The position numbers and the translations under genes are program-made. Under the pieces are notes generated by a model, which worked only from the letters and a program-made list of their open reading frames with translations, did not search any database and had not been told where the DNA came from. This document shows, piece by piece, positions 30,173 to 40,157 of a DNA stretch of 64,000 nucleotides. Location: assembly GCF_030295325.1 (NCBI RefSeq), contig NZ_AP027059.1, positions 1,856,637 to 1,920,636 on the forward strand, given 5' to 3'. The stretch is from Haliovirga abyssi. Its GTDB lineage: Bacteria; Fusobacteriota; Fusobacteriia; Fusobacteriales; Haliovirgaceae. Position 1 is the first letter of the stretch. Each line of letters opens with the position of its first letter.

Positions 30173-30991
30173 TTATTTTAGTAAATTCAGCACACTTTGT
30201 GGCATTGAATTAGCTTGTGCTAACATCGCTGTCCCTGACTGCGAAATTATTGACTCTTTTGAATAATTCACCATTTCTTTTGACATATCTACATCTCTTA
30301 TCCTACTTTCTGCAGCCTGAAGGTTTTCAGAAGCTGTACCCAAATTATTTATTGTATGCTCCAACCTGTTTTGCATTGCTCCAAAACTAGCTCTTTGAGT
30401 AGAAACTGATGTGATAGCTGTATCAATTGTAGTTATAGCACTATTTGCAGCTGTTTGTGATGAAACTGAAATACTAGAAATCCCCAAAGCACTTGCTCTC
30501 ATACTTGAAATATTTAAGGTTACTGTTTGAGAAGCATTCGCTCCTACATGAAACGATAACCCAGTTGTTGAATATGACCCTGATAAAAGGTTCATTCCAT
30601 TAAACTGAGTTGTTTCCCCAATCCTATTCACTTCACTTACAAGCTGATTTACTTCTAATTGTATCATATCTCTATCAGAACTTGTATTAGTATCATTTGC
30701 AGATTGAACAGATAATTCTCTCATTCTTTGTAATATTGAATGAGTTTCATTTAATGCTCCTTCTGCTGTTTGTATAAGACTTATAGAATCTTGAGAATTT
30801 CTTTCTGCCATATTAAGACCATTGATCTGCCCTCTCATCTTTTCTGATATGGCTAATCCTGCTGCATCATCACCAGCTCTATTTATTCTTAAACCTGATG
30901 ATAATTTTTCCAACGATTTCGCTATAGTCCCTTCAGAATTAGTTAAATTTCGATAAGAATTCATAGCTGAAATATTATGATTTATAATCAT
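30173..30991 (-). CDS. fliC: Flagellin 1
   Basis: 272-residue short flagellin (D0 and D1 domains only). It has the conserved N-terminus MIINHNISAMNSYRNL and LEKLSSGLRINRAGDDAAGLAISEKMRGQI, and the C-terminal AAESRIRDVDMSKEMVNYSKESIISQSGTAMLAQAN. It is the most divergent of the four paralogues here. The start is the ATG at 30991 after GGAGGGGGA; the longer ORF upstream is leader. A CsrA-type hairpin and a Shine-Dalgarno-sequestering strand precede it. Confidence 0.93.
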   Translation of the reverse strand: MIINHNISAMNSYRNLTNSEGTIAKSLEKLSSGLRINRAGDDAAGLAISEKMRGQINGLNMAERNSQDSISLIQTAEGALNETHSILQRMRELSVQSANDTNTSSDRDMIQLEVNQLVSEVNRIGETTQFNGMNLLSGSYSTTGLSFHVGANASQTVTLNISSMRASALGISSISVSSQTAANSAITTIDTAITSVSTQRASFGAMQNRLEHTINNLGTASENLQAAESRIRDVDMSKEMVNYSKESIISQSGTAMLAQANSMPQSVLNLLK

Positions 30992-31142
30992 AGCAATCTC
31001 CCCCTCCATGATATTTTTTCTAAAGCATCCCTGCTTTATCATCACGCGAGATTATACCGCCGGCCAAAGTAGTATAATATCAACATGACCACCGTTAGAT
31101 TTAATTTAATTAAATCCAACAGAAGAATTTATCATGGAGGGG
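30992..31142 (-). promoter_or_regulatory. Flagellin 1 leader: CsrA hairpin and sequestered ribosome site
   Basis: The minus-strand hairpin TAAAGCA-GGGA-TGCTTTA lies at 31021-31038, 30 nt before the start. TATCATGGAGGGG at the ribosome site (31001-31013) is perfectly complementary over 13 bp to CCCCTCCATGATA at 31130-31142. Between the arms lie a GATTTAA/TTAAATC hairpin and an ATTATAC/GTATAAT hairpin with a GGCCGGC loop. Confidence 0.7.
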
Positions 31143-31156
31143 AAGAACTATTTTTT

Positions 31157-31186
31157 AGTATTAAGAGCCAAAAGGCTCTTAATACT
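31157..31186 (-). terminator. Perfect hairpin between flagellins 2 and 1
   Basis: AGTATTAAGAGCC and GGCTCTTAATACT, 13 bp with a 4-nt loop, just after the flagellin 2 stop codon. On the minus strand it is followed by A-run, not T-run, so it may be a processing or stabilising hairpin rather than a full terminator. No promoter is evident between it and the flagellin 1 leader. Confidence 0.55.
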
Positions 31187-31190
31187 TAGA

Positions 31191-32027
31191 TTATCTAAGT
31201 AATTGTAACACACCTTGTGGTTGTGCATTTGCTTGTGCTAACATTGCTGTACCTGATTGAGAAATGATCTTATTTTTACTAAATTTAACCATCTCTTTAG
31301 ACATATCAACATCTCTTATTCTGCTTTCTGCTGCTTGTAAGTTTTCTGATGATGTATTCAAATTATTTATTGTATGCTCTAATCTGTTTTGCATTGCTCC
31401 AAATTTTGATCTCTCAGCTGAAACTGACTCAATAGCTGTATTTATTGTAGTTATTGCTGTTTCTGCTGATGCTGCACTTGTTATTGATAATGCTTGTGAT
31501 GCACTTGCTCCACTTATTCCAAGAGCACTTGCTTTCATACTGTTAAATTTCAAACTTACAAATTGACCTTCATTAGCTCCTACATGAAATCTTAGACCAT
31601 TTGTAGCATAGCTTCCTGTCATCAAAGTTTTTGTATTAAACTCTGTTTGTCCAGATATTCTATCTACCTCTTGTCTTAGTCTATCCATTTCTTTTTGTAT
31701 TTCGCCTCTATCTGTTGTCGTATTTGTATCATTTGATGATTGTACTGCTAATTCTCTCATTCTTTGTAATATTGAATGTGTTTCATTTAATGCACCTTCA
31801 GCTGTTTGTATCAAACTAATAGAATCTTGTGCATTTTTTGCAGCCATGTCCAATCCTTTTACTTGTCCTCTCATTTTTTCTGATATAGCTAGTCCTGCTG
31901 CATCATCACCAGCTCTATTTATTCTTAAACCTGATGACAATTTTTCCAATGAACCATTTACATTATTATTGGTTTGAGTCAAGTTTCTAAAAGAATTCAT
32001 TGCTGACATATTGTGATTGATAATCAT
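31191..32027 (-). CDS. fliC: Flagellin 2
   Basis: 278-residue short flagellin with the same conserved termini as its neighbours (MIINHNMSAMNSFRNL; RIRDVDMSKEMVKFSKNKIISQSGTAMLAQANAQPQG split by normal variation). It is very similar to flagellin 3 throughout, including the central NGLRFHVGANE.QFVSLKFNSMKASAL segment. GGAGGGGG precedes the ATG. The leader carries the CsrA hairpin and sequestering strand. Confidence 0.95.
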   Translation of the reverse strand: MIINHNMSAMNSFRNLTQTNNNVNGSLEKLSSGLRINRAGDDAAGLAISEKMRGQVKGLDMAAKNAQDSISLIQTAEGALNETHSILQRMRELAVQSSNDTNTTTDRGEIQKEMDRLRQEVDRISGQTEFNTKTLMTGSYATNGLRFHVGANEGQFVSLKFNSMKASALGISGASASQALSITSAASAETAITTINTAIESVSAERSKFGAMQNRLEHTINNLNTSSENLQAAESRIRDVDMSKEMVKFSKNKIISQSGTAMLAQANAQPQGVLQLLR

Positions 32028-32210
32028 TTTTATAACCCCCTCCGTGTTTTTTTCCCAAGCATCCTTGCCTGAGTTGATTGTAAAAATATAGGGCCCTTAT
32101 ATTTAGCAACCATCACTAACTTCTATAAAGCTAAAAATTAACAATTGTTACTAAATGTAAAAACACGGAGGAGATATCCTTGAAAGAAAATTAAGAATAA
32201 TTTTCTTTCA
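32028..32210 (-). promoter_or_regulatory. Flagellin 2 leader: CsrA hairpin and sequestered ribosome site
   Basis: Minus-strand hairpin CAGGCA-AGGA-TGCTTG at 32056-32071, 29 nt before the start. The ribosome-site strand AAAAACACGGAGG (32039-32051) is perfectly complementary over 13 bp to CCTCCGTGTTTTT at 32159-32171. A GGGCCC-centred palindrome lies between. A 12-bp perfect hairpin (TGAAAGAAAATT/AATTTTCTTTCA) at 32181-32210 probably marks the 5' end of the leader. Confidence 0.7.
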
Positions 32211-32233
32211 TATTATTATCAAACATTTAAACT

Positions 32234-32436
32234 TAAGAACGTTTAAAAAATAATTTTCTCTTTTTTTGTTATAAAAACGCTTAAAGAACATTTAAAAAAT
32301 ATTTTCTTATATTTTGTTGTAAAAACGCTTGAATCGTTGCGTATTTTAAAACAAAAGGATAAGGTTGTTTTTAAAGCGTTCCTAAATTATTGCGTATTTT
32401 ATAACAAAATCAGAAGGTTATTTTTAAGCCATTCCT
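32234..32436. repeat. Two family A repeats, one nested inside the other
   Basis: The inner copy (about 32283-32384, flanked by TA on both sides) interrupts the outer copy. Removing it restores an outer repeat (32234-32282 joined to 32385-32436) that aligns end to end with other full copies. This shows family A moves as a unit. Confidence 0.8.
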
Positions 32437-32446
32437 TAATTTATTA

Positions 32447-33286
32447 TTACCCTCTTAGAAGTTGTAATACTCCTTGAGGTTGTGTATTTGCTTGTGCTAA
32501 CATCGCTGTACCTGATTGAGCAATAATTTTATTTTTACTAAATGCAACCATCTCTTTAGACATATCAACATCTCTTATTCTGCTTTCTGCTGCTTGTAAA
32601 TTTTCTGATGATGTACCTAAGTTATTTATTGTATGCTCTAATCTGTTTTGCATTGCTCCAAATTTTGATCTTTCAGCTGAAACTGTTTCAATAGCTGTGT
32701 TTATTGTAGTTATTGCTGTTTCTGCTGATGCTGCACTTGTTATTGATAACGCTTGCGATGCACTTGCTCCACTTATCGCTAAAGCACTTGCTTTCATACT
32801 ATTAAATTTCAAACTTACAAATTGATTTTCATTAGCTCCTACATGAAATCTTAGACCATTTGTAGCAAAACTTCCTGTCATCAAAGTCTTTGTATTAAAC
32901 TCTGTTTGATTAGATATTCTGTCTACTTCTTGTCTTAGTCTGTCCATTTCTTTTTGTATTTCGCCTCTATCTGTTGTTGTATTTGTATCATTGGCTGATT
33001 GTACTGCTAATTCTCTCATTCTTTGTAATATTGAATGTGTTTCATTTAACGCACCTTCAGCTGTTTGTATCAAACTAATAGAATCTTGTGCATTTTTCTT
33101 TGCCATATCCAGACCTTTTACTTGTCCTCTCATTTTTTCTGATATAGCTAGTCCTGCTGCATCGTCACCAGCTCTATTTATTCTCAAACCTGATGATAAT
33201 TTTTCCAATGAACCATTAATAGTCTTATTTGTTTGTGATAAATTCCTATAAGAATTCATTGCTGTTATATTATGATTGATAATCAT
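32447..33286 (-). CDS. fliC: Flagellin 3
   Basis: 279-residue short flagellin, nearly identical in sequence to flagellin 2 apart from scattered substitutions. The start is the ATG at 33286 (MIINHNITAMNSYRNL) after AAGGAGGATG; the 33 upstream codons of the open frame are leader. Separate leader with CsrA hairpin and sequestering strand. Confidence 0.95.
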   Translation of the reverse strand: MIINHNITAMNSYRNLSQTNKTINGSLEKLSSGLRINRAGDDAAGLAISEKMRGQVKGLDMAKKNAQDSISLIQTAEGALNETHSILQRMRELAVQSANDTNTTTDRGEIQKEMDRLRQEVDRISNQTEFNTKTLMTGSFATNGLRFHVGANENQFVSLKFNSMKASALAISGASASQALSITSAASAETAITTINTAIETVSAERSKFGAMQNRLEHTINNLGTSSENLQAAESRIRDVDMSKEMVAFSKNKIIAQSGTAMLAQANTQPQGVLQLLRG

Positions 33287-33437
33287 TTCCCTCATCCTCC
33301 TTGACTTTTTTTTGGCATCCCTGCCTATTACAATGTTTACCGCGCGGACTTCAACATTATAAAGTGGTTTTTTTAACCACCACAACTGAGATTAATAAAA
33401 TTAACCCCACTCATTGTGGTTAAATCTCGTCAAGGAG
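33287..33437 (-). promoter_or_regulatory. Flagellin 3 leader: CsrA hairpin and sequestered ribosome site
   Basis: Minus-strand hairpin GGCA-GGGA-TGCC at 33314-33325, 28 nt before the start. GTCAAGGAG at the ribosome site (33297-33305) is complementary over 9 bp to CTCCTTGAC at 33429-33437. Inside the loop lie further hairpins: GTGGTT/AACCAC, AATGTT/AACATT capped by CCGCGCGG, and GAGATT/AATCTC. Confidence 0.7.
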
Positions 33438-33543
33438 ATCTGATACTATCTTCCCTTTTTTATTTTATTATTTTCTTTTTACATATCAAACTATCTTAAA
33501 ATAATTTTATACCTTCCCAAATATAAAAAATTTTAAATATTAA

Positions 33544-34383
33544 CTATCCTTTCAACAGTTGCAACACTCCTTGCGGTTGTGCATTTGCTTGTGCTAACAT
33601 TGCTGTTCCTGATTGAGATATAATTTTATTTTTACTAAATTTAACCATCTCTTGAGACATATCAACATCTCTTATTCTACTTTCTGCTGCTTGTAAATTT
33701 TCTGATGCTGTTTTTAAATTATTTATTGTATGTTCTAATCTGTTTTGCATTGCTCCAAATTTCGATCTTTGTTCTGATACTGATTCAATAGCACTATTTA
33801 TTGTTGTAATTGCTGTTTCTGCTGCTGTTGCAGTTGTTATAGATATTGCTTGTGATGCACTCGCTCCACTTATTGCTAAAGAACTTGCTTTCATACTGTT
33901 TATTTTTAAACTAATAGATTGACCTTGATTTGCTCCTACTTGAAATACCATTCCTGTTGTTGCAAATGCTCCAGTCAATAGTTTTTTAGTATTAAATTCT
34001 GTACTGTCAGCTATTCTGTCGATTTCTTGTTTTAATTGATTCATCTCTTTTTGTATTTCTGATCTGTCTGATGATGTGTTAGTATCATTGGCTGCTTGAA
34101 CTGCTAATTCTCTCATTCTTTGCAATATTGAATGAGTTTCATTTAGAGCTCCTTCTCCTGTTTGTATCAAACTTATTGCATCTTGAGAATTTTTACTTGC
34201 CATATCTAACCCTCTGATTTGACCTCTCATTTTTTCTGAAATTGCTAGACCTGCTGCATCATCACCAGCTCTGTTTATTCTTAACCCTGATGATAATTTT
34301 TCTAATGATTTCGTAACACTATCATTAGTTGTTGATAGATTTTTGTAGGCATTCATAGCCACAATGTTGTGATTAATAATCAT
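33544..34383 (-). CDS. fliC: Flagellin 4
   Basis: 279-residue short flagellin, first of the four behind csrA and thus in the position of Bacillus hag. Starts MIINHNIVAMNAYKNL and ends with RIRDVDMSQEMVKFSKNKIISQSG and QPQGVLQLLKG. It is somewhat more divergent from 2 and 3 in the central part. AAGGAGGATG precedes the ATG. Confidence 0.95.
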   Translation of the reverse strand: MIINHNIVAMNAYKNLSTTNDSVTKSLEKLSSGLRINRAGDDAAGLAISEKMRGQIRGLDMASKNSQDAISLIQTGEGALNETHSILQRMRELAVQAANDTNTSSDRSEIQKEMNQLKQEIDRIADSTEFNTKKLLTGAFATTGMVFQVGANQGQSISLKINSMKASSLAISGASASQAISITTATAAETAITTINSAIESVSEQRSKFGAMQNRLEHTINNLKTASENLQAAESRIRDVDMSQEMVKFSKNKIISQSGTAMLAQANAQPQGVLQLLKG

Positions 34384-34482
34384 TTCTCTTCATCCTCCTT
34401 GATTTTTTTTGTCTTTTCGACATCCTTGTCTTTTCAAACATATAAAAAACCCTGTTTAAATTTTTCAAACAGGGTTTTTTTG
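34384..34482 (-). promoter_or_regulatory. Flagellin 4 leader: CsrA hairpin and terminator-like hairpin
   Basis: Minus-strand hairpin GACA-AGGA-TGTC at 34419-34430 contains the CsrA consensus ACAAGGATGT, 36 nt before the start; a second GGA is in the ribosome site. Just upstream, AACCCTGTTT and AAACAGGGTT (34448-34476) form a stem followed by T-run, which looks like an intrinsic terminator. There is no room for a promoter between it and the gene, so transcription must pass through it. Confidence 0.7.
34444..34481 (-). terminator. Attenuator-like terminator in the flagellin 4 leader
   Basis: 10-bp stem AACCCTGTTT/AAACAGGGTT with a 9-nt loop, T-runs on both sides. It stands between the csrA region and flagellin 4. 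Confidence 0.75.
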
Positions 34483-34520
34483 TTAGTTTAATTAAAGATT
34501 AAACTATATAATAAAACAAT

Positions 34521-35061
34521 TAAAGAGTTGCAGAAAAATAAGTTTCTTATTTTTTTAATTACTCTTTAAAACTTGTTTCATTGTATAATCAAACCTTTTA
34601 CTAATCCTTTAGTTAATTCTTAAACCTCCCTGTTTAAGGTTTTTTTATGAGGTTGACTCCTCTATTCAATTGTTAGTTATTTTTTTGCCACAAGAAAATT
34701 TCTCTTGTGGCGCGCCCAATACAATTCAAAAAGAAACAAAAATAACACTTGCTATTAGTTGGAAGTCATAAGAACCCACTAATGGCAAGTGTTAATATTT
34801 AAAAATAAATTAACAATACACTTACCGAACCATTCCTTTAGCTCTTACTTAAACCTCCTTGTTTAAGGATTTTTTATGAGGTTAGCTCCTCTATTCAACA
34901 TCTTATTTAAATTATCGTCATCTTCTTTTATTACTTTAATACTTTTTTATTTTTTTATTTCTTACTTTTTTAGAAATATTAAAAAAATAATATTCTTGTA
35001 TTTGTTCATAAAGATATTATCGTTATATATATAATTTACTTTAGCTTTTTTTGTATATTTT
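34521..35061. ncRNA. Non-coding region rich in hairpins with GGA loops
   Basis: About 540 bp without a gene between csrA and the flagellin 4 leader. It holds two copies of a 45-50-nt unit (minus strand, about 34672-34616 and 34898-34848): a GAGG..CCTC mini-hairpin, then CTTAAAC-ARGGAG-GTTTAAG with GGA in the loop (34619-34638 and 34848-34867), then CTAAAGGA. Further hairpins lie at 34688-34711 (CCACAAGA/TCTTGTGG) and 34744-34793 (AACACTTGC/GCAAGTGTT). The read as an RNA, such as a CsrA-binding leader or decoy, is inference. On the plus strand the same two hairpins are followed by T-runs. Confidence 0.45.
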
Positions 35062-35298
35062 TTATTTTTTTATTTTTTTAAATAAATTTCCTAATCCACT
35101 TATTTTTTCTTTTGAATTTTTTGCTGCTATCTCATTTTCTTTTTGAATCTCAGCATAAACTTCCGCTCTATGAACTGTTACTTTTCTAGGAGCTTTTATT
35201 CCAATCTTTACTTGATCTCCTTTTACATCTACAACAACTATTTCTATATCATCACCAATTATAATACTTTCATTTTTTTTCCTCGATAGCACTAACAT
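35062..35298 (-). CDS. csrA: Translational regulator CsrA
   Basis: 78-residue RNA-binding dimer ([35 protein letters not shown]) that binds GGA-containing hairpins and blocks translation, classically of flagellin mRNA. The N-terminal strand and the VHRAEVY segment that contact RNA are intact; the C-terminal tail is longer than the 60-65 residues of enteric CsrA, as usual when FliW is present. Its start is one base past the fliW stop, so coupled expression is likely. The four flagellin leaders downstream carry matching sites. Confidence 0.97.
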
Positions 35299-35299
35299 A

Positions 35300-35761
35300 T
35301 TATTTTACCTCCTGATCAGAGGGTAAGTTTTTCTCCATCTCTTCTAATACATAATGTTTTAACTTATGTCTTGAATTTGTTGATATAACCTGTTTTGCTA
35401 TTTTTCTTTTTGCATTAATAACTATTGGTCCTTGTAGATTAGCTGTCATTTTAGAAGGATCATCTGGTATTACAACAATTGAAAATATTTCTGAATCTTC
35501 AGGTTTTGTTAATTTCAAATCCTCAGTATCTTTTTCAGAAATTTCTAAAGCATATTTTGGCATAAATTCATATGGCCTTATTATAACAAATGCCAATGCT
35601 GGTTCTTCTATTGCTTGTAACCATTTTAATGGATTTCCTTCTTCCATATTAAAAATTACATATTTTTTAATATCTTCAAATCCTAATATTCCTTCTGGAA
35701 AATTTATAATTTCCGCTTCTTCTATTTCTATTTCTCCAAATCTAGTAGTGCTTATTTTCAT
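35300..35761 (-). CDS. fliW: Flagellar assembly factor FliW, CsrA antagonist
   Basis: 153 residues with the FliW pattern ([29 protein letters not shown], then [18 protein letters not shown]). In Bacillus FliW sequesters CsrA and is itself bound by flagellin, so filament assembly sets flagellin translation. The same order yviE-fliW-csrA-flagellin is seen here. Confidence 0.95.
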
Positions 35762-39769: not shown

Positions 39770-40087
39770 CTAAAATATACTATCTATTAACGAATCTGCA
39801 ACTTTGTCTAAATTCATTTTATAAGTTCCATTTGCTATACTTTGTTTTAATGAAGAAATCTTATCTGAATTCGTATCATTTATTTGTGATAATTTTTGTT
39901 TTATAAATTCTATTTCTACTTTATTATTATCTATTTTAGCATTTTGAGATATTGTAACTTTATCTTTTATTGCACCAGTTTTAGAGAATTTATCAGAATC
40001 TTTTTGTTCATTTTTTACCTTTGCATTCTCAATTTTATCTGTTTTATATGCCTTATAAATATTTGAGATATTTCCAAATACTTTCAT
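39770..40087 (-). CDS. flgM: Anti-sigma-28 factor FlgM
   Basis: 105 residues. The C-terminal segment KISSLKQSIANGTYKMNLDKVADSLIDSIF is the FlgM sigma-binding motif; the N-terminal half is disordered. It would hold the flagellar sigma factor until the hook is finished and then be exported. Start at the ATG at 40087 after GAGGTG. Confidence 0.85.
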   Translation of the reverse strand: MKVFGNISNIYKAYKTDKIENAKVKNEQKDSDKFSKTGAIKDKVTISQNAKIDNNKVEIEFIKQKLSQINDTNSDKISSLKQSIANGTYKMNLDKVADSLIDSIF

Positions 40088-40157
40088 AATTCTCACCTCT
40101 CTTCTATATATATTTTCTACTATTAAATTTATCGTCTTTTTTCCATTAAAACTTTAA

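Follow-up and report, generated by a model that had tools for sequence, protein, structure and literature searches.

What occupies the 678 nucleotides that separate csrA from a flagellin gene, and how might this interval control that gene? In the window, by which we mean the whole 64,000-nt stretch of DNA analysed here, fliW, csrA, the 678-nt gap and flagellins 4 to 1 follow one another in that order on the minus strand (Table 1); the genome is 2.7 Mb in size and is the sole member of its family among the Fusobacteriales-like relatives compared. The original prediction placed in this gap a terminator stem ahead of flagellin 4 and two copies of a GGA-hairpin unit, one of which could form an antiterminator. 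Our analysis makes it a little better than an even bet that a sigma-28-driven, CsrA-binding leader RNA acts here as an attenuator of the downstream flagellin gene.

The locus has the components associated with flagellin control by CsrA and FliW. In addition to the adjoining csrA and fliW genes, CsrA carries a C-terminal extension as in FliW-binding CsrA proteins, and its nearest solved chain is 5dmb_D, from a FliW-CsrA complex entry (E 1e-18, residues 2-77). The leader of flagellin 4 contains a predicted CsrA hairpin and a GGA within its Shine-Dalgarno sequence, and the leaders of the other flagellins have hairpins like it. Folding predicts that a long stem takes up the Shine-Dalgarno GGA in flagellins 1-3 (P = 1.0) and that this GGA is largely open in flagellin 4, which agrees with the original observation that flagellin 4 lacks an antisense arm. 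In the leaders of flagellins 1-3 (30991-31190, 32027-32250 and 33286-33440) it is a distal antisense arm that pairs the Shine-Dalgarno sequence (P = 1.0), and a CsrA-type hairpin of the form C-ANGGAT-G stays open beside it; several flagellin leaders of the relatives look similar.

Table 1. Features of the csrA-flagellin 4 region and of flgM, in positions of the window; sites and hairpins are predicted.
Feature	Position	Strand	Basis or remark
fliW, directly upstream of csrA	35300..35761	-	NF009793 above cut-off; 5dmb_A FliW E 2e-30
csrA, 78 aa	35062..35298	-	TIGR00202 E 5e-27; NF002469 above cut-off
Sigma-28-like promoter P1, TAAAG-N15-AACGATAAT	35016..35043	-	pattern match; equivalent in four relatives
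Sigma-28-like promoter P2, TAAAG-N15-GACGATAAT	34911..34938	-	pattern match; motif shared with the site upstream of flgM
Copy 1 hairpin 1, GAGG-AGCTAA-CCTC	34878..34891	-	stem covaries with GAGC/GCTC of relatives
Copy 1 hairpin 2, CTTAAAC-AAGGAG-GTTTAAG	34848..34867	-	predicted CsrA site
Copy 1 hairpin 3, GAGCTA-AAGGAA-TGGTTC	34827..34844	-	predicted CsrA site
Terminator-like hairpin after copy 1, with U-rich tail	34725..34799	-	hairpin 34738-34799
Copy 2 hairpin 1, GAGG-AGTCAA-CCTC	34649..34662	-	
Copy 2 hairpin 2, CTTAAAC-AGGGAG-GTTTAAG	34619..34638	-	predicted CsrA site; supplies the antiterminator strand
Antiterminator strand UUAAACAGGG	34628..34637	-	includes GG of the predicted CsrA site; duplex with 34465-34474
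Copy 2 hairpin 3, ACTA-AAGGAT-TAGT	34600..34613	-	predicted CsrA site; forms in competition with the long hairpin
Long hairpin bringing hairpin 2 and terminator together	34488..34607	-	long hairpin at the equivalent position in relatives
Intrinsic terminator ahead of flagellin 4, 17 pairs, then U-rich sequence	34444..34480	-	position conserved in relatives
Terminator 5' arm CCCUGUUUGA	34465..34474	-	partner is hairpin 2 or the terminator 3' arm
Flagellin 4 leader hairpin GAC-AAGGAT-GTC	34419..34430	-	predicted CsrA site; same or GACAAGGAAGTC before the corresponding flagellin in relatives
Flagellin 4 Shine-Dalgarno AAGGAGG	34394..34400	-	possible second CsrA contact
Flagellin 4, Hag-type flagellin	33544..34383	-	NF009446 above cut-off
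Sigma-28-like promoter directly ahead of flgM, TAAAG-N16-GACGATAA	40129-40156		third window match
flgM	39770-40096		NCBIfam name FlgM

Within the gap a structured element occurs twice (34829-34898 and 34600-34669), as had been claimed, with 86% identity over 70 nt; the 22-nt core of the unit has exactly two occurrences in the window compared with 0.01 expected, and neither BLAST nor a covariance model, R1, found further copies elsewhere in the window genome. We aligned 10 copies from five genomes over 91 columns and scored three hairpins, whereupon 96% of the stem cells were seen to pair and 7 of 16 pairs had changes on both sides; hairpins 1-3 had a covariation score of 0.397, whereas shuffling gave 0.165 and sliding the partners no more than 0.067. 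Hairpins 2 and 3 carry ANGGA loops in all copies, in which the A and the GGA never change and N can be any of the four bases; this is at the sequence level the CsrA consensus, and nearly all copies have the form C-ANGGAG-G in hairpin 2 and A-ANGGAN-U in hairpin 3. Furthermore, hairpin 2 fits the CANGGANG hexaloop, described as high-affinity for CsrA/RsmE in the cited part of PMC4894983, and the two GGAs of a copy are spaced 18-22 nt apart in 8 of the 10 (the optimum given there for CsrA is 18 nt), while the two g23 A copies hold an extra ANGGA between them. Together with the presence of csrA in every genome that has the element, the covarying stems with invariant ANGGA loops and this spacing support the reading of hairpins 2 and 3 as conserved, predicted CsrA-type sites. 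The free N disfavours an array of Shine-Dalgarno mimics. Hairpin 1, whose GGA (GAGGAG..CCTC) had been counted among the GGA hairpins, was ruled out as a CsrA site, since this GGA is not kept in the relatives, where the stem is GAGC/GCTC and the loop A-rich; it is in the other two hairpins that the CsrA-type site is conserved.

The copies are separated by further structure. After copy 1 there is a terminator-like hairpin (34738-34799) that had been absent from the original prediction, and its 5' arm is predicted to pair alternatively with GGUAAGUGU beside copy 1 hairpin 3. By folding, first copies also bury the GGA of hairpin 2 in downstream pairing, but more weakly, and in the relatives no clear U-tract follows the first copy, so that the two copies need not work alike. 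At 34687-34711, also between the copies, lies a hairpin formed by GCCACAAGA and TCTTGTGGC, with an A-tract after it and GGGCGC before it, which is no terminator on this strand.

Comparison across the phylum links the array to flagellin. Six of 98 genomes encode flagellins and exactly the same six encode csrA, so co-occurrence of the element with csrA is inseparable from its co-occurrence with flagella. The unit had been put forward for a search in relatives, and this was borne out in four genomes from two genera (G076, G058, G079 and G080), each with a two-copy array directly before one flagellin and a terminator just before a GACAAGGA(T/A)GTC leader hairpin; in the sixth flagellin genome (G001) the contigs break off shortly behind csrA and within flagellin. 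The upstream neighbour in the relatives is not csrA, being an HD-domain-like protein (g23) or an OmpA-like protein (g25) as judged by sequence, and the conserved link is thus with flagellin. R1 detected the element twice in every one of the five genomes (E 1.1e-7 or better), which represent about three independent lineages; as the model had been trained on these ten matches, the informative result is that no others appeared, with nothing below E 0.03 elsewhere in the phylum. A search of 50 flagellated genomes, mostly Bacillota, gave no R1 match, which says little as it had no positive control. A FliA-family sigma factor was above cut-off in the window genome, G076, G080 and G001, and FliW was detected in the window genome, G001 and G058 in a search that left out G076, G079 and G080.

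Two loci outside the phylum were also noted. Psychrobacillus has three clustered ANGGA hexaloop hairpins (L044 456-950, also L031 and L052) about 4.3 kb upstream of flagellin, which were set aside because they fall within an open reading frame that appears to be flgN. Alteribacillus persepolensis (L086 4885-4997) has three ANGGA hairpins in a row directly before flagellin.

Using the pattern TAAA-N14-16-NNCGATAA we identified two sigma-28-like sites, P1 and P2, ahead of the array. Each of the four relatives has three such sites before its array, one of those in G079 reading TTAAGG and not TTAAAG. Genome-wide the pattern is not enriched (22 matches, compared with 37 for the reversed pattern) and is unspecific, therefore the case for these promoters stands on position and conservation. 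A consensus scan of the minus strand from 33665 to 35421 found no sigma-70-like site. In every one of the five genomes the flagellin leader hairpin follows the terminator within about 15-20 nt, an interval with little room for a promoter, and consensus scans showed none between this terminator and flagellin in the window or the four relatives, although a promoter of flagellin 4 could be missed by such scans.

With promoter-like and terminator sites and no sizeable reading frame (its longest open stretch, 30 codons, rules out a protein-coding array), the array could instead be one or two separate genes for a trans-acting CsrB/RsmZ-like sRNA, with their own sigma-28 promoters and a constitutive terminator, which would titrate CsrA and free all flagellin mRNAs. 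Its place before flagellin would then reflect regulon clustering, and flagellin 4 would have its own promoter. The two copies, in which four ANGGA loops share the form C-ANGGAN-G with the flagellin leader sites, are consistent with such a decoy, but it would have only four consensus sites compared with the many in CsrB, and the proximity of leader hairpin to terminator in every genome, with no promoter seen, speaks against it. So does the conserved pairing described below between the terminator arm and hairpin 2, for which a decoy would have no use, and overall we consider this explanation unlikely.

The case for attenuation rests on the terminator and its alternative partner. The stem that had been placed at 34444-34481 is real but ends one base earlier, at 34480, and the region around it is strongly structured (fold z-score -8.1 for 34440-34680). 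In the relatives the terminator is kept in place with different sequence. As was pointed out originally, hairpin 2 of copy 2 has a GGA loop and contains AAACAGGG, identical to the 3' arm of the terminator, and the pairing suggested on this basis between hairpin 2 and the terminator 5' arm was recovered in our folds. When the RNA was cut just before the terminator 3' arm to represent the nascent transcript, the GGA strand of hairpin 2 was predicted to pair with the 5' arm in five of five genomes with P of 0.94-1.0 (mean over the two G of the GGA), being about 0.99 for the antiterminator in the window, where the duplex has 10 predicted pairs and -14.6 kcal/mol. Shuffled arms reached the native P in 0, 0, 0, 1 and 4 of 200 trials in the five genomes, and terminators swapped in from elsewhere never did. 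Swapped or shuffled arms frequently gave values above 0.5 in G076 and G058 but never in the window, and the signal is therefore weaker in these two. Likewise, own-genome pairs had energies of -9.4 to -11.6 kcal/mol, compared with -6.4 and -7.2 for swapped pairs and -4.9 for hairpin 2 of copy 1. Comparison and computation thus point to a conserved antiterminator that is mutually exclusive with the terminator. The complete terminator is nonetheless predicted to be more stable than the antiterminator in each genome (by 7.6 kcal/mol in the window, 1.0 in G076, 0.2 in G058, 8.6 in G079 and 6.4 in G080, computed without kinetics, pausing or proteins), and the window value implies that antitermination must be kinetic.

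These folds also bear on whether the array is simply a structured 5' leader of the flagellin mRNA with a role in ribosome access or RNA stability. CsrA would then act on translation only, at the leader hairpin and the Shine-Dalgarno sequence, and the terminator-like and antiterminator pairings would be incidental. Translational control of flagellin by CsrA and FliW is an established arrangement in the cited parts of PMC4894983 and PMC7652899, and flagellin 4 has both canonical sites; however, the retention of a terminator and U-tract in place despite different sequence, and an alternative pairing above the shuffled and swapped controls, make this explanation improbable. It is similarly improbable that the loops bind a partner other than CsrA (the 16S rRNA anti-Shine-Dalgarno, another RNA-binding protein, or a small ligand as in a riboswitch), for which the Shine-Dalgarno-like AAGGAGG of copy 1 and the confounding of csrA co-occurrence with flagella can be cited, given that N takes any of four bases next to an invariant GGA, a pattern that one would expect of CsrA but not of pairing to rRNA, and that no Rfam riboswitch matched.

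The attenuator that we favour would operate as follows. Transcription would start at P1 and P2 late in flagellum assembly, once sigma-28 is active, and each copy would present two ANGGA loops spaced for one CsrA dimer. Free CsrA would hold copy 2 hairpin 2 as a hairpin, leaving the terminator 5' arm to pair with its own 3' arm, and transcription would stop before flagellin 4. Once the hook is complete and flagellin is exported, FliW would take CsrA away and hairpin 2 would open, its GGA strand joining the terminator 5' arm in the antiterminator and allowing read-through into flagellin. Since the antiterminator helix includes the GGA of hairpin 2, predicted CsrA binding and antitermination would be mutually exclusive, and it is most likely that CsrA favours termination before flagellin while removal of CsrA by FliW allows read-through. 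Of the original proposal that CsrA on this hairpin decides read-through, the CsrA-type sites are thus supported by comparison, whereas we infer the binding and the direction of control. CsrA at the flagellin leader hairpin and Shine-Dalgarno sequence would add control at the level of translation. With its four ANGGA sites the terminated RNA would bind CsrA too and may titrate it. The fuller proposal, of an intrinsic attenuator controlled by CsrA and FliW whose terminated leader serves as a CsrB-like decoy, sequestering CsrA alongside FliW outside the Gammaproteobacteria, is more tentative and we place it somewhat short of even.

Among known systems, the CsrB/CsrC and RsmX/Y/Z decoys of Gammaproteobacteria resemble the predicted RNA of the array in being non-coding, with repeated GGA loops, their own promoter and an intrinsic terminator at the end, and the array shares with them several ANGGA loop hairpins, two per copy, with covarying stems in hairpins 1-3. 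It differs in having no sequence or covariance-model similarity, fewer sites, a position directly before flagellin and sigma-28-like promoters. No Rfam family matched the array at the gathering score, the weak matches up to E = 10 being terminator-like hairpins, and CsrB, CsrC and RsmX/Y/Z gave no match up to E = 10 in the window (33300-35310) or E = 1 in the relatives, so that the likeness to CsrB-type decoys drawn originally holds as an analogy only. In addition, the organism has FliW, which Gammaproteobacteria do not have according to the cited part of PMC7652899. The TwoAYGGAY motif recalls the array by its name, through GGA-type hairpin loops, but it gave no Rfam match here, and the text of PMC2864571, which lists it for human gut, Gammaproteobacteria and Clostridiales, gives it no flagellin context.

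The flaA leader of Campylobacter jejuni and the hag leader of Bacillus subtilis are like that of flagellin 4 in combining a CsrA hairpin with a Shine-Dalgarno site under FliW control, and the flaA leader itself titrates CsrA (PMC4894983; PMC7652899). These leaders act on translation, and the cited parts of both papers describe no upstream array of CsrA sites or terminator/antiterminator switch. Neither a CsrA-operated intrinsic attenuator nor a CsrB-like RNA in a bacterium with FliW was found in the literature searched, most subscription journals lying outside it. In the cited part of a 2020 review, joint action of FliW and sRNA on CsrA remains to be determined in any species (PMC7652899); with its conserved array of CsrA-type sites next to csrA and fliW, this locus makes that question directly testable.

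In the E. coli pgaA leader, as proposed for the array, CsrA binding remodels the leader RNA and favours termination, but there termination is Rho-dependent with exposure of rut sites (cited part of PMC7652899), whereas here an intrinsic terminator would compete with an antiterminator that contains the predicted CsrA site. Should the switch operate as modelled, flagellin would be under CsrA control both at transcription termination and at translation, and such a conserved switch looks, from these models, like a new way of timing flagellum building in flagellated Fusobacteria. In the trp leader of B. subtilis, the protein TRAP binds repeated triplets in the antiterminator strand and lets an intrinsic terminator form. 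The logic of the array is similar, while the protein, the RNA repeats and the signal (FliW and flagellin export, not tryptophan) differ, and if the proposal is true CsrA would act on an intrinsic terminator in a TRAP-like way.
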